IMG/VR virus record: IMGVR_UViG_3300018412_000060
Span: 1-21,385 of that record
DNA: 21,385 nucleotides
Source of the DNA: a virus
Strand: one strand, 5' to 3'
Shown: positions 1,552 to 20,600 of the stretch, in pieces
Layout: each line of letters opens with the position of its first letter
Position numbering within the stretch: the first letter of the stretch is position 1
Made by a program: the position numbers and the translations under genes
Notes under the pieces: generated by a model
The model's database searches: none
Seen by the model: the letters and a program-made list of their open reading frames with translations, nothing else
Told to the model about the DNA's origin: nothing

Positions 1552-3327
1552 TTAATCATCGCCCCCTTTAAGCCACTTACTAGCTGTTCCGCTTTTCTCC
1601 ATACTTTTTATTTTTCTGACTGCAGCGAATACACTAGCATCAAATAAATCTATTCTTTGTGTGCCTCCATCTCCATCAACTTTTTCATATTGAATCATAT
1701 CATCGGTTTTTTCTATAGCCCTAACATTCTGTAAACAATACTCATATGCTTGTGAGTGTAAATAGTATAAATCTCCATCTTTTGCTTTCTTTTCTATTCT
1801 TCTAAACCCTTGAGATTTATTAATATATAACTGAGGTTCATCGATAACTCTAAAACCTGACTTTCTCATACCAATATAGAATTCTTGCCCAAATTTTCTA
1901 TCAAATCCTACTTGTTTAATATTGAATCCTTTTTTCTTCATTAATATAAACCAATTTATTATGTCCGAATAGTTAACAGTTGGAGTATTACACATTGTAA
2001 GATGCCCATCATCTTTCCAGCCAAAAAGAGGAATGTTGTCTTCTTCTGCTTTCTTGTAGGCCATTATCACTGGAAACCATGCATGAGTTATTACTATGTC
2101 CACATCTCTATATGTCCCGTTTTCATCTTTGTACGCATTCGCATAAGTTCCGTATAGTGCTGCAGCCGTTAAGTCATGTAGCTTAGATAAGTCTGCTCCT
2201 CCAAACCATTCTATTGGCAATCTTGCTAACTGATCTAAAGTCCAATTATATTTTTTATCGCTGTTTCTAAATTCATCCACATTAAAATATGCTCTCATTG
2301 CAGAAGTATAAATATTTAATTCTTTTGAAAAAAAATCTTTTCTTTGTTGTGGATCATTTTGAGCTTGATATGCCTCACTTACCATATCCTCTGGCCTTAT
2401 AGTTACTCCATAATTAGGGTTTGCTTTTTCATGCTCTATTGGATTTGTATAATCTACTTCTCCTTTTTCATCCTCATCTGCTTTAGTTATAAAAACAAAA
2501 TAAGCTTCATCAGTTGCAGTCTTATCTAATATTTTTTGACAATACTTAAGCCGGTTATAACAAAATGAATTCATGTTATCCCCGGCTGTGGTTATGCCTA
2601 TCATTAATTTATTTGTATAAGCTTTCATAGCTTCTTTGATTATGTTGTACTGCTTTGGACTTTTATATGCATGAACTTCATCTGCTATGCCTACATTACA
2701 GTTAAGTGAATCTTGTCTATCCGGGTTAGCCGCTAAGGCTTTTATATATATTGAGCCATCTCCTAAATCTCCAGATATTGAATGTTCTTGATTATTATCT
2801 AAAATCCTAAAGTTTTCTTTCTCTCCCATTTTTTCAAGGTTGAAGTTTATAAAATTCCAACTTTGTAAAGATTGTTCAAGAGCAGCTCCAACTATATAAA
2901 TTTTGGAACCTGATTTTCTTCCTAGTAATCCTAGCGCCCAAGTAAGGGCACCTACAAATCTCGTCTTACCATTTTTTCTAGGAATAAATATAAAGGCTTC
3001 TTTGAATCTTCTTATCACAGTTCCTTTAAGATAGAATCCTAACAAATTATATACTATAAATTTTTGCCACGGTTCTAATAAAAAGGGCTCTCCTCTGAGC
3101 GGAGTTCCATCTAATTTTTCTCCTTGGTCATGCACAAAAGTTTTTTCAATTATTTGGATTACAAATTCTGCATCTTTAGGGTTGAAATCATACTGTGTAT
3201 TTTCTAAATCATTAATAAATCTATTACAGGCTTGAATAAGTTCTTTACAAGCAACTTTTTTCCCATTGACTATACTTGTAGCATAGTCTAATACTGTAGA
3301 ATAATTTTTATATTTGTTATAATTCAT
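1552..3327 (-). CDS. terL: phage terminase large subunit
   Basis: This 591-residue packaging motor has an N-terminal ATPase and a C-terminal nuclease. The Walker A-like motif is FIPRKNGKT (residues about 114-122), Walker B with catalytic Glu is NVGIADE (211-217), and the nuclease acidic positions fit [10 protein letters not shown] (about residue 380), VGFDRKFG and the late LFDASV motif. The sequence matches the Terminase_1 family in length and order. The start ATG immediately follows the TAA of the small subunit gene, with only a weak Shine-Dalgarno sequence, so translation is probably coupled to terS. The protein works with the P27-type small subunit and, by family knowledge, with the nearby HNH endonuclease in cos-type packaging. 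Confidence 0.95.
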
Positions 3328-3684
3328 TTATTTCAACTCACTTAATATGCTGGCTAGTTTAGATTTGCTAGCTTTCTCTGCCGTGACATTCTCCAGGGAC
3401 TTTGGATTGAGACAAAGTATATTTGAGTATGTTGCTATATCCATCCTTAGTTTTTCCATCGCAGAAAATAAAGGAGTCTTTCTCATATTAGTAGCTCCAG
3501 CTTTGTTTGTATATTCTTCTTCAATTTGATAACCGTCATCCATAAACATTTCTTCAAAGTATTCATATTGGTGAAGCATACCTGCAAAAATATTAATCAC
3601 ATTTTTATATTCTGGCTTATAGATGCCCAAGGTTTTCATCTGTTTAATAATTTCATTTTTTATTGTCACTTGCTTCCTTGCCAT
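3328..3684 (-). CDS. terS: phage terminase small subunit, P27 family
   Basis: This 118-residue protein is expected to recognise the packaging site and load the large subunit. The start is ATG at 3682-3684 with GGGGTG five bases upstream. The features fit P27/Terminase_4: a short charged N-terminus (MARKQVTIKNEIIKQMK), a helical middle with YFEEMFMDDGYQIEEEYTNK, the motif NMRKTPLFSAMEKLRMDIATY and a C-terminal LCLNPKSLE with a lysine-rich tail. The NP.....M.K.....Y...LCL.P..R/K layout is what identifies this family. Its TAA abuts the ATG of the large subunit. The neighbours on both sides (HNH nuclease upstream, large terminase downstream) agree with the call. Confidence 0.85.
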   Translation of the reverse strand: MARKQVTIKNEIIKQMKTLGIYKPEYKNVINIFAGMLHQYEYFEEMFMDDGYQIEEEYTNKAGATNMRKTPLFSAMEKLRMDIATYSNILCLNPKSLENVTAEKASKSKLASILSELK

Positions 3685-3760
3685 CTCATCACCCCATTTC
3701 TAAAAATTATCACTCTATTGGAGAGAGTTTTCCTTCCCCGATTCCTTTAAGTCTATTATT

Positions 3761-4051
3761 TTATGTCAAGACAGGGGGGCTATGCTTATATATTCGCTCT
3801 ACTAGTTGCAATCCCTTATCTGTAAGTCCGTCAGTGTTTCTGTCATGGAAAGTATTATGGCAATTTGCGCAACAGCTATATAAGTTATTTATATTAAATC
3901 TTAACTCCGGATATTTAGATGCAGGTTTAATGTGGTGAACTGTATTTGCTAATGTAGTCTTCCCATATCTTTTACACTCTCTACATAAATATTCATCTCT
4001 TCTTAGCGCCTTGGCTCTTATCTTTTTCCATTTCATACTTTTATAATCCAT
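3761..4051 (-). CDS. phage HNH endonuclease (packaging-associated)
   Basis: This 96-residue protein carries a complete HNH fold signature: CRECKRYG (zinc CxxC, about residues 23-26), VHHIKP with the catalytic histidine pair (about 38-43), NLYSCCANCHNTFH with the central Asn and a second CxxC (about 56-69). The start is ATG at 4049-4051 behind GAGAGG with 10-nt spacing. Small HNH proteins encoded next to the terminase genes are known parts of many cos-phage packaging machines, where they stimulate the terminase nicking activity; the position here, directly upstream of terS, fits that. The 76 bases between this gene and terS hold only a weak ACTCT/AGAGT hairpin (3711-3727). Confidence 0.9.
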   Translation of the reverse strand: MDYKSMKWKKIRAKALRRDEYLCRECKRYGKTTLANTVHHIKPASKYPELRFNINNLYSCCANCHNTFHDRNTDGLTDKGLQLVERIYKHSPPVLT

Positions 4052-14174: not shown

Positions 14175-14552
14175 ATGAATAAATTTGGAAATATATTTAA
14201 AGCGCTTAGAGAAGAAAAAGGATTAACTCAACAAGAACTTGTAGATTTATTCAACAAACAATATCATTATAAATTTGGAAAATCCGCTATATCTCAGTAT
14301 GAAAATAATAAGCGAATACCTGAGGTAGAAGTACTGCAAAAATGGGCAGAGTTTTTTCAGGTCGGACTGGACTTTCTCTTAGGTAACTCCGACATAAGAA
14401 ACCCATATAAAGAAGCTCCCGAACAAAAAACGGATGAAGATATAGACCTCTGGCTTTCTAAAACAGATGGGTATAAAGAGCTTCCAGAAGAAGAGAGAGA
14501 AATTATTTCTAGCATAGCTAAGAAATTACTTGAGAAGCATAGGAAAGAATAG
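14175..14552 (+). CDS. CI-like phage repressor without peptidase domain
   Basis: This 125-residue protein has an N-terminal HTH (FKALREEKGLTQQELVDLFN, residues 8-27, and SAISQYENNKRIPEVEVLQK, 37-56). An acidic linker and a helical C-terminal tail follow (YKELPEEEREIISSIAKKLL). It lacks the LexA/CI autocleavage domain, so SOS-type self-cleavage is not expected. Short repressors of this type are paired with an ImmA/IrrE metallopeptidase, and one is encoded at 15699-16214. The start is ATG 14175 with GAGGTG upstream. It should hold down the early promoter and control its own transcription. Confidence 0.88.
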   Translation: MNKFGNIFKALREEKGLTQQELVDLFNKQYHYKFGKSAISQYENNKRIPEVEVLQKWAEFFQVGLDFLLGNSDIRNPYKEAPEQKTDEDIDLWLSKTDGYKELPEEEREIISSIAKKLLEKHRKE

Positions 14553-14580
14553 ATTAGGTATAAAAGGGGATGATTCATTT

Positions 14581-15444
14581 ATGAAAAGATTTGTTTATAT
14601 GGATACCGATACAATTAATTCCTATCTTTCACAGATTGATGATGGATTATTAGAAGCATCAAAGAATTTATTTATAAAGAATAATTCTGAATCAAAAAGT
14701 GAATCAGAAACTGAAACTAACCATACCAATAGCATTCAGTTAGGCATTCCTGCTGTTGCATCTTTGGGTATGACCGCCGGAGGAAATTCATCAGAAACTG
14801 TTCGCTCAATTTATAATTCTCAAGTTGGCGGAGATATTCTAACAAAAAAACTTCATGATAATGCCTATAGTCTTCTTTATAATCATTTAAACAGTCAAAA
14901 ACCTATTAAAACTGATATTGCAAATGCTGAAATTGGAGATTATGTACTTATTAAATCTAATTTTTATGTAGTTGATTTAGACTATTTTATTAAAGAAAAT
15001 TTTATGAATATCTTTATGAAAGTATATCCGCGCCTTATAAATCCAGAATCAACTAACCCTAACATTAACAAAAGTAAACTTAAGAAAGAATTTTCTGATA
15101 TTGAGCATAGTCTTAATTTGCTTAAAATTATATCTCATGTTCTTCCTTCAAATAAATTTATTCTTTCTAACGGTTTTTTTATTCCATTAGAAGATAAATT
15201 TTTTAGAGAAAATATTAACTCAATTAAATTTAAATATCCTGGGGAATCTTATATCTTTGCTGAAAAAACTGGAACTATAGGAAATATTCTTCATGACCAA
15301 AAAAACCTCCCCGGAAGTGGAGAGGTCTTGACTACTTTAACAGATGCATTTGACAGCTTCAATTTATCTATATTTAATTTAGTTGGAATAAATAATGGTG
15401 ATTCGGTACTAAATCCTATTTCTTGGTATTATGAATGGAACTAG
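14581..15444 (+). CDS. DUF6414 family protein in the lysogeny operon
   Basis: This 287-residue protein starts ATG 14581 with GGGG 11 bases upstream; the frame is open 17 codons earlier but without support. The N-terminus FVYMDTDTINSYLSQIDDGL (residues 4-23) is the hallmark I associate with DUF6414. A serine/glutamate-rich stretch (SESKSESETETNH) and a small-residue region (IPAVASLGMTAGG) follow, then a helix and a core that begins IGDYVLIKSNFYVVDLDY (about 120-137). No catalytic motif or confident membrane span is seen. DUF6414 proteins are of unknown function and turn up in prophages and accessory regions. Placed 28 bases after the repressor, it should be expressed in the lysogen, which suits lysogenic conversion or phage exclusion. 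Its 3' end is overlapped by a convergent antisense unit. Confidence 0.7.
   Translation: MKRFVYMDTDTINSYLSQIDDGLLEASKNLFIKNNSESKSESETETNHTNSIQLGIPAVASLGMTAGGNSSETVRSIYNSQVGGDILTKKLHDNAYSLLYNHLNSQKPIKTDIANAEIGDYVLIKSNFYVVDLDYFIKENFMNIFMKVYPRLINPESTNPNINKSKLKKEFSDIEHSLNLLKIISHVLPSNKFILSNGFFIPLEDKFFRENINSIKFKYPGESYIFAEKTGTIGNILHDQKNLPGSGEVLTTLTDAFDSFNLSIFNLVGINNGDSVLNPISWYYEWN
15299..15326 (-). terminator. minus-strand intrinsic terminator inside the DUF6414 gene
   Basis: On the minus strand ACCTCTCC (15319-15326) pairs with GGGGAGGT (15305-15312) across a 6-base loop, then six to seven T. The minus-strand RNA pairs in all eight positions (one G-U), whereas the plus-strand version has a C-A mismatch and no U-run. 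It would end the transcript of the 15416-15604 gene inside the opposing gene. Confidence 0.75.
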
Positions 15445-15604
15445 ACTTTTTTTTAATATAATCATTAGTTTCTCTTACATTTTTATTAAAAGATTCATCA
15501 AATTGCTTATTGAACAATTCATTATCTTTAGGAAATTTTTTTTTATTTTTCATTATATAACTCATATTTTTTTCCATTAAGTTGAATATTCTTACTATCA
15601 ACAT
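15416..15604 (-). CDS. small basic protein on an antisense transcription unit
   Basis: This 62-residue protein is convergent with the DUF6414 gene and overlaps its last 29 bases. It starts ATG at 15602-15604, eight bases after GAGG; the ribosome binding site is nearly identical to that of recT. A near-perfect minus-strand promoter lies at 15640-15668 and a terminator at 15299-15326. The product begins MLIVRIFNLMEKNMSYIMK, continues KKFPKDNELFNKQFDESFN and has a basic serine-rich end; predicted helical and soluble, no family recognised. It may be a real small regulator, or the RNA itself may be the active part, since about 140 bases of the transcript are complementary to the DUF6414 message. 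Confidence 0.6.
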   Translation of the reverse strand: MLIVRIFNLMEKNMSYIMKNKKKFPKDNELFNKQFDESFNKNVRETNDYIKKKSSSIHNTKK

Positions 15605-15639
15605 ATTATCATCCTCTTTGCTTTAAATATATTGTTATC

Positions 15640-15668
15640 ATTATACTTTCTAAAAAAAAATATATCAA
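15640..15668 (-). promoter_or_regulatory. near-consensus promoter for the antisense unit
   Basis: On the minus strand TTGATA (15663-15668) and TATAAT (15640-15645) are separated by exactly 17 bases; eleven of twelve hexamer positions match consensus. It lies in the gap upstream of the ImmA-type gene but points away from it. Confidence 0.8.
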
Positions 15669-15698
15669 TAAGTATATTGTAATCACAAAGGTGTAGTC

Positions 15699-16214
15699 AT
15701 GGGAAAATTAGAAAAATTATACAAATTAATTGAAAAAGAAAATATCAAGCTAGAAATTCTAAATTCTCTTCCTGATCATATAGATGGAATGTATTTAAAA
15801 TCTGAATCTAGCTATCCAATAATTGTGATAAATAAAAAATTAGAAAATGACTCCATGAAATTTAAAATAGTTTTGGCTGAAGAGCTTGGCCATCATTTCA
15901 CTAGTGTTGGAGACTCTAGGGTTATGTTTAACTCTTATACTAGAAGATTGCAGCTGGATAAATCAGAAATAACAGCTTTAAAATGGGCCACTGAATTTTT
16001 ACTTCCTATCGACAGACTAAAAGAAGCTTTCTTAAAAATGCATAATAGACAGATTGATGGTGTGACTCAGGAACTTGAGGTTCCTCATGAGTTTCTACTG
16101 GCTAGACTTAAGTTTCTATCTCATAAGTTCGATTACATTGACTTAGATGATAAGAAAGCAATATTACTTACTACTTTGCCTAACATATGTACAATAGAAA
16201 AGATAGCTGAGTAA
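15699..16214 (+). CDS. ImmA/IrrE-family metallopeptidase
   Basis: This 171-residue protein has the family's short form. The active-site helix is [12 protein letters not shown] (residues 59-70), an H-E-x-x-H variant in which the first histidine position is Glu, as I recall from other Firmicute phage members. The region after it, [20 protein letters not shown] (about 88-107) with LPIDRLKEA, is the usual second half supplying the further metal ligand and repressor contacts. The known role of ImmA is to cut the partner HTH repressor (ImmR/CI type) on a DNA-damage or antirepressor signal, starting prophage induction; the partner here should be the repressor at 14175. The start is ATG 15699 behind AAAGGTG. 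The DUF6414 gene separates the usual pair. Confidence 0.88.
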
Positions 16215-16249: not shown

Positions 16250-17074
16250 TTGATACTTTTCTTTGAAAAATTCGGTCCAGTTGAACAAGCCCTCATAGGA
16301 ACTCTATTCACTTGGGGCGTTACAGCTCTTGGCGCATCACTTGTTTTCTTTTTTAAATCAATAAATAAAACTATTCTTAATGGAATGCTTGGATTTGCTG
16401 CTGGGGTTATGATAGCAGCAAGCTTTTGGTCATTACTTTCTCCTGCAATAACTATGGCTGAAGAACTCGGACAAATAGCATCTCTTACTGCTGCAATTGG
16501 ATTTTTAGGTGGAGGAGCATTTTTATATTTAGTTGATAAATTATTACCCCATCTACATATGGGATTAGAAACTTCACAAGCTGAAGGTGTTAAAACAAAT
16601 TGGCAAAGAAGTGTATTGTTAGTTTTAGCAATTACCCTTCACAATATTCCAGAAGGACTTGCTGTTGGAGTTGCATTTGGAGCCGTAGCTGCAGGAACTG
16701 GAAGTTCAGCTTCACTAGCTGGAGCTATAGCTCTTGCAATTGGTATCGGTTTACAGAACTTTCCAGAAGGAGCAGCTGTTTCAATACCGCTCAGAAGAGA
16801 AGGTTTCAGCAGAACAAAATCATTCTTATATGGTCAAGCATCTGGGATAGTTGAGCCTATTGCAGGTGTAATCGGAGCCTTTGCTGTTGTGAAGATGCAG
16901 CCTATCTTACCTTATGCTCTAGCATTTGCAGCTGGAGCGATGATTTATGTTGTTATTGAAGAACTTATTCCAGAAGCCCAACGTGAAGAAGGTGGCTCAA
17001 AAACTGATATAGCTACAATAGGTTGTATGATTGGATTTACTATCATGATGGTTCTAGATGTTGCTCTTGGTTAG
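16250..17074 (+). CDS. ZIP-family divalent metal transporter
   Basis: This 274-residue protein has about eight membrane segments with the ZIP metal-site motifs HNIPEG (131-136) in segment IV and QNFPEG (169-174) in segment V, plus [10 protein letters not shown] near the end. A histidine loop (LPHLHMG, 99-105) lies before them. This is the GufA/ZupT-like bacterial branch, which brings zinc, iron or manganese into the cytoplasm. It starts at TTG (16250-16252), seven bases after AGGAGG. Such genes are normally chromosomal. Here it follows ImmA by 35 bases inside a prophage and is visibly richer in G and C than the genes after it, so it looks like captured host cargo. Which metal it carries cannot be told. 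Confidence 0.93.
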
Positions 17075-18074: not shown

Positions 18075-19712
18075 ATGGATAAAAATAATATCCAAGACAA
18101 TAAAGATATAAAATTCAAGAAAATTAATAGCATAAAAATAAGTAATTTTAGAAGTTTAAAAAATAAAGAAATTACTTTAGGAAATAATCTAACAGTCATA
18201 TCTGGTAAAAACGGTACTATGAAATCTACATTATTAGGATTAATTGCTCATCCATTTAGCAGTCCTAGTGATGCTAAAGATATTTTTGGTAAACAACTTA
18301 AAACTACATTAAAAGAAGTTTTTAACCTAAGTTTAGAAAAAGACAATAAACAATATATTTACTACTTAAATGCTAAAGATATAGATGGAAATGATTTTGA
18401 AACTCCAATTCGTGTTTATCCAAGTTCTGATAATACAAGACACCGTATAACTGTTGGTAAATCAAATGAAAAAGGATTGGGGAATTTTTCTCTTAATACC
18501 AGCTATTTAAACTTTAAAAGATTATATCCAATTGTTGATACTAATTCTAAGCCTTTGCAAGAAATTTTAACTGAAGAATATAAAAAATTTATTGATCGAG
18601 GATATTACAAAATTCTGCAAAAACAAACTTTTAATAATCCTGTATTAGTTGAGGATAAATCTATAAAAACTACTTTTGGTCCTACTGAAACATATTATGA
18701 TTATGCCTCTATATCCTCTGGTGAAGACAATTTAGGTCATATATTAAGTAAATTATTTGCGTTCGAGAAGAATTCTCTTGGAAAGGATTGTCTTAATGGA
18801 ATATTGTGTATTGATGAAATAGAAGCTGGTCTTCATCCAATTGCCCAAAAAAAACTTATTGAATATTTATATACTTGGAGCGCTAAAAATAAAGTACAAG
18901 TAGTTCTAACTTCTCACTCACTATATCTTATTCAATGTATAATCGAAATGCAAAAAAAGAAAAACTGTGACGATATAGTTTTGAATATCATCAGCACTCA
19001 ATTTGTAGATGATAATAATTATAATATTATACTAAATCCAACTTATTCAGATGCCTATAAAGAACTTACTTTCCGTGATAGCGAAGAAAACAACATTCTA
19101 TTTAAACCCGTTATAATAATGGAAGATAAATTAGCTATAACTTACTTAAAGCGTATAATAAAAACTCGTGATATCATAAATAAAGTTGATTTTTTAACAG
19201 GATTAACATCAAATGAAACTAATGATGGTATGAGTTATAAAAATATTTTTTTGTTAATAGATAATGGAAAGAAGCTTTTCACAGACACCATTTTTGTTTT
19301 AGATCCAGATGTTAATATAGACAAATATAAAGATAATTTAAATGTCCTAAAATTACCATCCATTGAAGACTTATGTATAGAAAAAGCTATCGTTTTCTTT
19401 ATTTATTCTTTAAAAGGAAGTGACCATTTCTTTGTTAAATATAACAAAGAAAGAGATTCTTTTATATCTGACTTTTCAGATTATAATATTCAGTCTTTTA
19501 CAATAGTTGATTTACAAAAATCTCCTGCAAAAAATTATAAAAAATGGGCAGCTTCAGATAAAAACTTTGATACATATATAACTTTTTTTATTAATAGGCA
19601 TTCTAGAGATGAAAATTTTGTAAATTTTAGAACTAATTTTGTAAAGTCTCTAAATAACCTATATGAAAAAAAATCTTTGCCTTTAATTCAATATAAGGCT
19701 GGCCAAGAATAA
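18075..19712 (+). CDS. OLD-like AAA ATPase with C-terminal TOPRIM-type domain
   Basis: This 545-residue protein begins with the RecF/OLD-type strand IKISNFRSLKNKEITLGNN (20-38). It has Walker A GKNGTMKST (44-52), where Met replaces the usual second Gly; ABC signature-like SISSGEDNLG (212-221); Walker B ILCIDEIEAGLHP (243-254); and switch histidine VVLTSHS (276-282). The C-terminal part has the TOPRIM pattern: Glu in IIMEDKLAITYL (348-358), then VLDPDV (408-413) with D410 and D412, then LPSIEDL. OLD-family proteins couple ATP binding to DNA or RNA nicking and act in phage defence (P2 Old, GajA). The start ATG 18075 follows AAGGGGG by six bases. The gene sits between the membrane protein and an adenine methylase. 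The specific system is not one I can name. Confidence 0.82.
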   Translation: MDKNNIQDNKDIKFKKINSIKISNFRSLKNKEITLGNNLTVISGKNGTMKSTLLGLIAHPFSSPSDAKDIFGKQLKTTLKEVFNLSLEKDNKQYIYYLNAKDIDGNDFETPIRVYPSSDNTRHRITVGKSNEKGLGNFSLNTSYLNFKRLYPIVDTNSKPLQEILTEEYKKFIDRGYYKILQKQTFNNPVLVEDKSIKTTFGPTETYYDYASISSGEDNLGHILSKLFAFEKNSLGKDCLNGILCIDEIEAGLHPIAQKKLIEYLYTWSAKNKVQVVLTSHSLYLIQCIIEMQKKKNCDDIVLNIISTQFVDDNNYNIILNPTYSDAYKELTFRDSEENNILFKPVIIMEDKLAITYLKRIIKTRDIINKVDFLTGLTSNETNDGMSYKNIFLLIDNGKKLFTDTIFVLDPDVNIDKYKDNLNVLKLPSIEDLCIEKAIVFFIYSLKGSDHFFVKYNKERDSFISDFSDYNIQSFTIVDLQKSPAKNYKKWAASDKNFDTYITFFINRHSRDENFVNFRTNFVKSLNNLYEKKSLPLIQYKAGQE

Positions 19713-19754: not shown

Positions 19755-20600
19755 ATGCCCATAACTCATTCTCCCTTAAGATATCCTGGAGGAAAAACAA
19801 AACTATATAAATATACTAAAGAATTAATCAGATTAAACAATCTTAGTGGATGTACTTACGTGGAGCCCTTTGCTGGTGGATGTGGCCTTTCACTCCAACT
19901 TCTATATGATAATGTTGTTAGTAAACTGGTATTAAATGATATTGATACATCTATTTACTCATTTTGGAATACAGTTCTTAATAATGCATCTGAACTATGT
20001 AAAAAAATTCAAACAACAGAAGTTACTATTGATGAATGGAAGCTTCAAAAAAATATTCAAAACAAAAAAGATATAGTAACTGAATTTGAATTAGCTTATT
20101 CAACATTATTTTTAAATAGAACCAATAGATCTGGAATAATATCTGCTGGCCCAATTGGAGGATATGAGCAAACTGGTAATTATACTCTAGATTGTAGATT
20201 TAATAAAAAGGATATTATTAATAAGATTATGAAAATATCATCAAATAAGAAAAAAATTCATTTTTATAATCTTGATGCAGAAATTTTTATAAAAAATATT
20301 GTATCAAGACAAAAACAAAAAACATTTATTTTTTTAGATCCTCCATATTTTGCAAAAGGTCCAGAATTATATACTAATTTTTACAATGAAGATAATCATA
20401 CCTCATTGAGAAACACTACTTCTAAAATTAATAAGCATTGGATTGTAACATATGACAATGTCAATAAAATAAAAGAACTTTATAGCGATTACCACATTGA
20501 AGAATATAATATTAACTATAGCGCTCAGAAGGTTTATAAAGGTAAAGAAATAATGATATATTCAAAAAAAATAGCTCCAATAATTCATCCTATATCATAA
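19755..20600 (+). CDS. D12-class N6-adenine DNA methyltransferase (Dam-like)
   Basis: This 281-residue enzyme carries the class signature LRYPGGK (8-14), SAM-binding motif EPFAGGCG (37-44), NDID (61-64), the conserved LFLNRTNRSGI (118-128) and catalytic FLDPPYF (193-199). It transfers a methyl group from SAM to N6 of adenine at a short site; the site (GATC or other) cannot be read from sequence. The start ATG 19755 follows AGGTGG. It lies 42 bases after the ATPase-TOPRIM gene in the same direction, with a terminator 12 bases after its stop, so it closes the cassette. It could mark self DNA for the neighbouring nuclease or act as an orphan phage methylase that evades host restriction. No cognate restriction endonuclease is visible. 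Confidence 0.9.
   Translation: MPITHSPLRYPGGKTKLYKYTKELIRLNNLSGCTYVEPFAGGCGLSLQLLYDNVVSKLVLNDIDTSIYSFWNTVLNNASELCKKIQTTEVTIDEWKLQKNIQNKKDIVTEFELAYSTLFLNRTNRSGIISAGPIGGYEQTGNYTLDCRFNKKDIINKIMKISSNKKKIHFYNLDAEIFIKNIVSRQKQKTFIFLDPPYFAKGPELYTNFYNEDNHTSLRNTTSKINKHWIVTYDNVNKIKELYSDYHIEEYNINYSAQKVYKGKEIMIYSKKIAPIIHPIS

Follow-up and report, generated by a model that had tools for sequence, protein, structure and literature searches.

A convergent pair of DUF6414 and small-protein genes, probably a two-gene cargo module of Bacillota prophages

We analysed a 21,385-base virus record from IMG/VR, called the window below, in which the 3' end of a DUF6414 gene meets a 62-codon gene on the opposite strand. 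The same face-to-face pair is present in prophages of many Gram-positive bacteria, and it therefore looks like a two-gene module rather than a one-off regulatory RNA. In our reading it is probably a conserved prophage cargo module of Bacillota phages, made up of an effector-like DUF6414 protein and a small partner protein. At the level of sequence, the evidence comprises the recurrence of the pair, its insertion, the coding signature of the small gene, promoter-like and terminator-like signals, and the defence genes beside which DUF6414 lies in cellular genomes; the function of the module, the interaction of its proteins and its regulation are what we infer. In the literature searched (mainly open-access journal papers) there is no description of this pairing, and the term DUF6414 itself had no match.

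The insertion and its minus-strand unit

Close relatives of the window phage include three IMG/VR contigs (L005-L007), whose ImmA is 95-97% identical to that of the window. A fourth is Acetoanaerobium phage ANDSL2_ph1 (PP197248.1), and these relatives make Acetoanaerobium, or a bacterium close to it, the probable host. In 4/4 of them cI is followed directly by immA, with a gap of 58-59 nt; in the window 1.1 kb separate them, and this additional DNA consists of the DUF6414 gene and the opposing ORF (Table 1). Because the four relatives lack the whole ~1.1 kb, the two genes are, by this comparison, a joint insertion in this phage family.

Table 1. Features in and around the inserted segment (window coordinates)
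Feature	Position	Strand	Basis or detail
cI-type repressor gene, 5' of the insertion	14175..14552	+	HTH_3 and phage repressor families
Segment missing from four close relatives	14553..15687		blastn breakpoints 14549 and 15688; exact ends approximate
DUF6414 gene, 287 codons	14581..15444	+	PF19952, phrog_16607
Intrinsic terminator of the minus-strand unit, within the DUF6414 gene	15299..15329	-	fold, U7, synonymous shuffles; hairpin ~15329-15302, U-run to 15300
Small partner gene, 62 codons, product basic and probably helical	15416..15604	-	same position in 16 other lineages; ATG at 15604, stop ending at 15416
Tail-to-tail overlap of the DUF6414 and small-gene coding regions, 29 nt	15416..15444		coordinates
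Small-gene ribosome binding site GAGG	15613..15616	-	sequence
Small-gene promoter TTGATA-17-TATAAT	15640..15668	-	11/12 consensus bases; -35 at 15668-15663, -10 at 15645-15640, spacer 17 nt
immA/IrrE-type metalloprotease gene, 3' of the insertion	15699..16214	+	Peptidase_M78, phrog_87

A sequence-only reading of this DNA had described a complete transcription unit facing the DUF6414 gene, with promoter, ribosome binding site, 62-codon ORF and terminator in order on the minus strand; all of these are present, and at the sequence level the unit is well supported. Promoter-like matches as a class are not enriched in the region (15 found versus 11.5 +/- 3.8 expected), and the small-gene promoter is the best among the 15; over the whole window, three sites fit the pattern with at most one mismatch, versus 0.95 expected. 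The terminator lies inside DUF6414 and is asymmetric, as had been claimed: the minus strand folds at -15.9 kcal/mol and is followed by UUUUUUU, and the plus strand folds at -10.1 kcal/mol without a U-run. Among synonymous-codon shuffles of DUF6414, 0/60 contain a terminator of this strength on the minus strand, and the hairpin thus does not simply follow from the encoded protein. The predicted RNA would start at about 15633 and end at about 15300; its recomputed length of ~334 nt, of which 145 nt are complementary to the coding region of DUF6414, agrees with the roughly 330 and 140 bases given before. The unit has no Rfam match for a known RNA.

The DUF6414 gene starts 28 nt downstream of cI, which makes joint transcription with cI the simplest assumption; in the lysogen the cI transcript would be its source of expression, with the small gene read from its own promoter. 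A search of the 330 nt downstream of DUF6414 gave no plus-strand terminator, and read-through into immA would thus cross the whole antisense unit. That the minus-strand unit also faces any cI/DUF6414 read-through into immA is a point absent from the earlier reading.

A ZIP-type metal transporter gene (window 16250-17074) lies directly after immA inside the prophage; its DNA is 96-99% identical in L005-L007, the closest genome-contig copies are about 83-84% identical, and the gene appears to be cargo of the phage. Between immA and the ZIP gene, L006 (6563-7642), L007 (6563-7642) and L188 (5775-6854) have a 359-codon gene, annotated ‘endonuclease’ in PP197248.1, and the window has nothing at that site; by this comparison, the immA-ZIP interval is a second cargo site beside the DUF6414 site. 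At the right end, an AAA/OLD-like ATPase gene (window 18075-19712; PADLOC AriA, E 6e-22) precedes a Dam-type DNA methyltransferase gene (window 19755-20600; PD-Lambda-5_B model, E 9e-119), and the two are candidate defence cargo in common with L006.

Recurrence and coding character of the small gene

Among viral contigs, the window's DUF6414 and small-ORF queries returned only one identical contig (IMGVR 3300018405_000008); a DUF6414 scan of genome contigs gave no confirmed match; and the phages collection yielded only a distant DUF6414 at 25% identity (MT836674) and no match to the small ORF. A small-ORF search of 71 Tepidibacter-family genomes gave two weak matches within 524-residue frames, which were judged to be chance. 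Cellular DUF6414 relatives led to two prophage-like loci of the same arrangement (L183 and L184), and a scan of viral contigs with two degenerate DNA patterns representing the N-terminal motif of DUF6414 gave a larger set.

In 17 phage lineages of Bacillota, the 3' end of DUF6414 faces a convergent ORF of 50-69 codons (Table 2). The coding regions overlap by 13-53 nt in 15/17 lineages and abut in the other two (JNU_P5 and LR1). In the viral-contig set, all full-length phage-type DUF6414 genes with enough downstream sequence have the convergent small ORF. Judged by its recurrence across lineages, the overlap with DUF6414 is not accidental, and of all the evidence that the window's unit is real, this conservation weighs most. 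Both genes of the pair are annotated in IPP24 and R24.2, as hypothetical proteins. In LR1 (L239, MH837542.1), the DUF6414-like gene (2986-3843) is annotated ‘recombinase’ (AYN56707.1), which is unsupported by sequence match, and the small convergent frame is unannotated.

Table 2. Convergent small ORF and coding overlap in 17 phage lineages
Lineage	Small ORF (codons)	Overlap (nt)	Remark
Window	62	29	
L183 (= L225)	69	17	
L184 (= L235)	65	53	
L207	67	23	
L211	64	17	
L213	64	23	
L217	66	17	
L191 group	68	33	includes Lacticaseibacillus phage R24.2
L194-L216 group	68	33	
L228	65	17	
L229	67	23	
L231	56	17	
L233	62	17	
L234	54	17	
Streptococcus phage IPP24	68	13	
Lactobacillus phage JNU_P5	51	none	GTG start; abuts DUF6414
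Lactobacillus phage LR1	50	none	TTG start; abuts DUF6414

The flanks of the pair differ. According to the translations read, most pairs lie in the lysogeny region, beside cI, immA or integrase, and those of L217, L233 and L234 lie nearer lysin-like genes. This bears on the idea that the small gene is independent cargo with a function of its own, merely travelling beside DUF6414. That it has a promoter and a terminator to itself in the window, and that small-protein sequences diverge strongly, would fit such a gene, but its place and orientation are constant in 17 lineages despite different hosts and flanking genes, and searches with two small proteins, whose reach is close relatives only, returned no record that does not also carry DUF6414; we regard independent cargo as quite improbable.

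How often would such an arrangement arise by chance? As a criterion we used an opposite-strand ATG ORF of 55-75 codons, with a ribosome site, extending 10-60 nt over a gene end, and as controls the remaining genes with 150 codons or more in the phage loci analysed. Such an ORF is found at 5/631 control genes, and at 0/303 in contigs with <36% GC, compared with 17/17 full-length phage-type DUF6414 loci from nine lineages. The small-ORF stop is usually a TAG read against the DUF6414 C-terminal motif P-I-A-[IV]-Y, and the reading phase of the overlap is identical in 12/15 cases. The DUF6414 motif can therefore supply this stop passively; left needing explanation are the open frame of the small ORF, its length and its ribosome site.

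The ORF behaves as a gene. Its codon score falls among those of the window's real small genes. Comparison of lactobacillus alleles over the part beyond the overlap gives a pS of 0.24 and a pN of 0.07-0.09; where alleles vary, pN/pS is ~0.3, which places the small ORF, where measurable, under purifying selection. Promoter-like matches are common in the region, and an AT-rich stretch might offer both a promoter match and an ORF, but the control rate, the coding score and pN/pS all tell against chance, a reading already contradicted by the conservation seen across lineages and one to which we give hardly any credence. The earlier interpretation is right in part, but its emphasis on an antisense RNA was misplaced: what is conserved is primarily a gene for a protein, which has a ribosome binding site and, where measurable, is under purifying selection.

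All of the small proteins examined (15/15) have a net charge of +5 to +13 and a GRAVY of -0.9 to -1.6, and contain no hydrophobic stretch of membrane type. The window protein is modelled as two helices (pLDDT 81, pTM 0.38) and is probably helical. A first guess, a Spo0E-like phosphatase, was dropped when no Pfam match was obtained, and there is no NCBIfam match either. In leave-one-out profile tests across the strongly divergent lineages, the correct ORF came top of its contig in 5/7, with E-values of 0.04-9. These E-values are weak, and we therefore restrict the claim to a positional family, defined largely by position, size and composition; sequence homology among its members is likely.

Two further observations concern small genes. 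Near cro, L005 (5017-5193) and L006 (3192-3371) have small minus-strand genes that share a FDE[SG]FNK stretch with the 62-codon product; at E about 0.1, distant relatives or chance are both possible. In the lactobacillus prophage L243, the small-gene allele (2501-2704) is, by eye, like that of L208 and the DUF6414 allele (2675-3682) like that of L216, which suggests recombination between the two genes of the pair.

There are also exceptions to the pairing. L186, nested among paired genes and 70% identical to L211, has an intact DUF6414 without the small ORF, which is also missing from L164, an unverified scaffold from the phage collection; L219 has a truncated DUF6414 beside an intact small ORF. 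A tree built from 31 DUF6414 proteins shows clustering of the paired state (4 changes versus 10.5 in shuffles), but not a single clade. As far as the loci compared here go, pairing is strong in phages and not obligatory.

DUF6414 and its defence associations

The window DUF6414 protein matches PF19952 at 70.8 bits (cut-off 25). Aligned viral-contig members are 18-31% identical to it, and between the two lactobacillus groups the DUF6414 proteins share 74% identity. Net charges of -4 to -20 make the paired DUF6414 proteins acidic; the single zero comes from a mis-started reading of L233. The structure model of the window protein (pLDDT 69, pTM 0.62) gave no Foldseek match at E <= 0.001 against the PDB and viral models, and no PDB sequence relative was found. 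The MCM N-terminal domain was considered as a fold relative and rejected, the best VIA-align Z of 4.7 being too weak.

Cellular DUF6414 genes keep company with defence genes. L165 is DolA, a component of the Dodola anti-phage system (PADLOC DolA E 9e-79; PF19952 E 8e-46), and DolB follows DUF6414 in both L165 (E 6e-133) and L167 (E 2e-136). Other cellular neighbours are HerA (L173), the candidate nuclease PDC-S02 (L182) and PDC-S60 (L168), and in L164 the genes upstream of DUF6414 read, by eye, as type I restriction HsdM/HsdS. By association, this supports a conflict role for DUF6414. The reported targets of Dodola are a phage of Bacillus subtilis (PMC11514479) and streptococcal phages, and its mechanism is listed as unknown (PMC12322248).

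DolA and the window protein are both DUF6414 family members, but the partner in Dodola is the ClpB-like DolB, adjoining dolA on the same strand, whereas the partner gene in the window is small, basic in its product and convergent. The window protein matches PADLOC DolA only in part (residues 2-89, E 0.0025), the other phage-type DUF6414 proteins scanned with that model gave no match, and the window contains no DolB, the neighbours of DUF6414 being cI, the 62-codon ORF and immA. Given the partial DolA match and the missing DolB, we do not file the window protein as Dodola.

How the pair may work

In the two-gene cargo module that we favour, the DUF6414 protein would be a defence or exclusion effector, and the small protein would bind or modulate it. 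The 145-nt overlap may in addition couple the two genes through RNA duplexes or polymerase collision. Antisense regulation of DUF6414 is plausible but would be secondary.

One narrower form of the same explanation is a toxin-antitoxin pair, in which a toxin-like DUF6414 protein is neutralised by binding of the small basic protein, or the reverse, and the convergent overlap is an extra layer of control. The tight pairing, the prophage location and the opposite net charges of the products are consistent with it, and L219, with its intact small gene beside a truncated DUF6414, is what an antitoxin model would predict. The two genes of most toxin-antitoxin pairs run in the same direction, however, and DUF6414 is intact yet lacks the small gene in L186 and at several cellular loci; as pairing is not obligatory (L186, L164, L219), a strict antitoxin model is weakened. 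We consider a toxin-antitoxin pair unlikely.

The layout also recalls prophage type I toxin-antitoxin loci such as yonT/SR6, txpA and bsrG, which are convergent prophage units with a 3'-overlapping antisense RNA (PMC5848175, PMC6563280); convergent units, overlapping 3' ends and a small ORF are found here as well. In those loci, however, the small ORF encodes a hydrophobic toxin and the RNA facing it serves as antitoxin, whereas the small protein of the window is highly charged and the opposing transcript is that of a 287-codon gene. The GRAVY values given above are not those of a small hydrophobic toxin peptide, and instead of a non-coding antisense RNA antitoxin there is a protein gene on both strands.

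A likeness in gene order is offered by the noncontiguous operon, or excludon, in which collision and RNase III couple opposing mRNAs (PMC7154746). The gene order of the window fits this layout: the small gene opposes the surrounding cI-DUF6414-[small]-immA order, overlapping mRNAs are predicted, and the 330 nt after DUF6414 are free of a recognised plus-strand terminator. It differs in that the coding regions themselves overlap, and co-transcription of cI, DUF6414 and immA is proposed from the genes.

Could the antisense RNA nevertheless be the main element, tuning DUF6414 (perhaps also immA) in cis or by colliding transcription, with the small peptide incidental? The 145-nt antisense stretch of the predicted RNA and the strength of the window terminator relative to synonymous shuffles would fit, as would the minus-strand terminators within DUF6414 in L207, the lactobacillus group, IPP24 and JNU_P5. 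That every lineage has such a terminator was rejected, clear cases being limited to about five lineages, and the length of the RNA overlap therefore probably varies. Against a mainly antisense role, no minus-strand terminator is recognisable within DUF6414 in several lineages, the coding regions of two lineages do not overlap, and the reading frame is kept in 17 lineages with purifying selection; we think it improbable.

Taking the two-gene cargo module a step further, and tentatively, it may be a widespread defence or exclusion module, in which a DolA-related DUF6414 effector is under the control of a tiny basic partner and of the 3' gene overlap. If so, the coding sequences and the mRNAs of effector and partner would constrain each other. 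The comparison also illustrates that an apparent antisense RNA in one genome can prove to be a conserved overlapping gene when relatives are compared. DUF6414 is a family without known function, for which Dodola is the one tested defence system found here to have a member, and the conserved small partner gene provides a concrete handle on it; as the pair is present in phages of lactobacilli that any ordinary laboratory can handle, its function is open to direct test.
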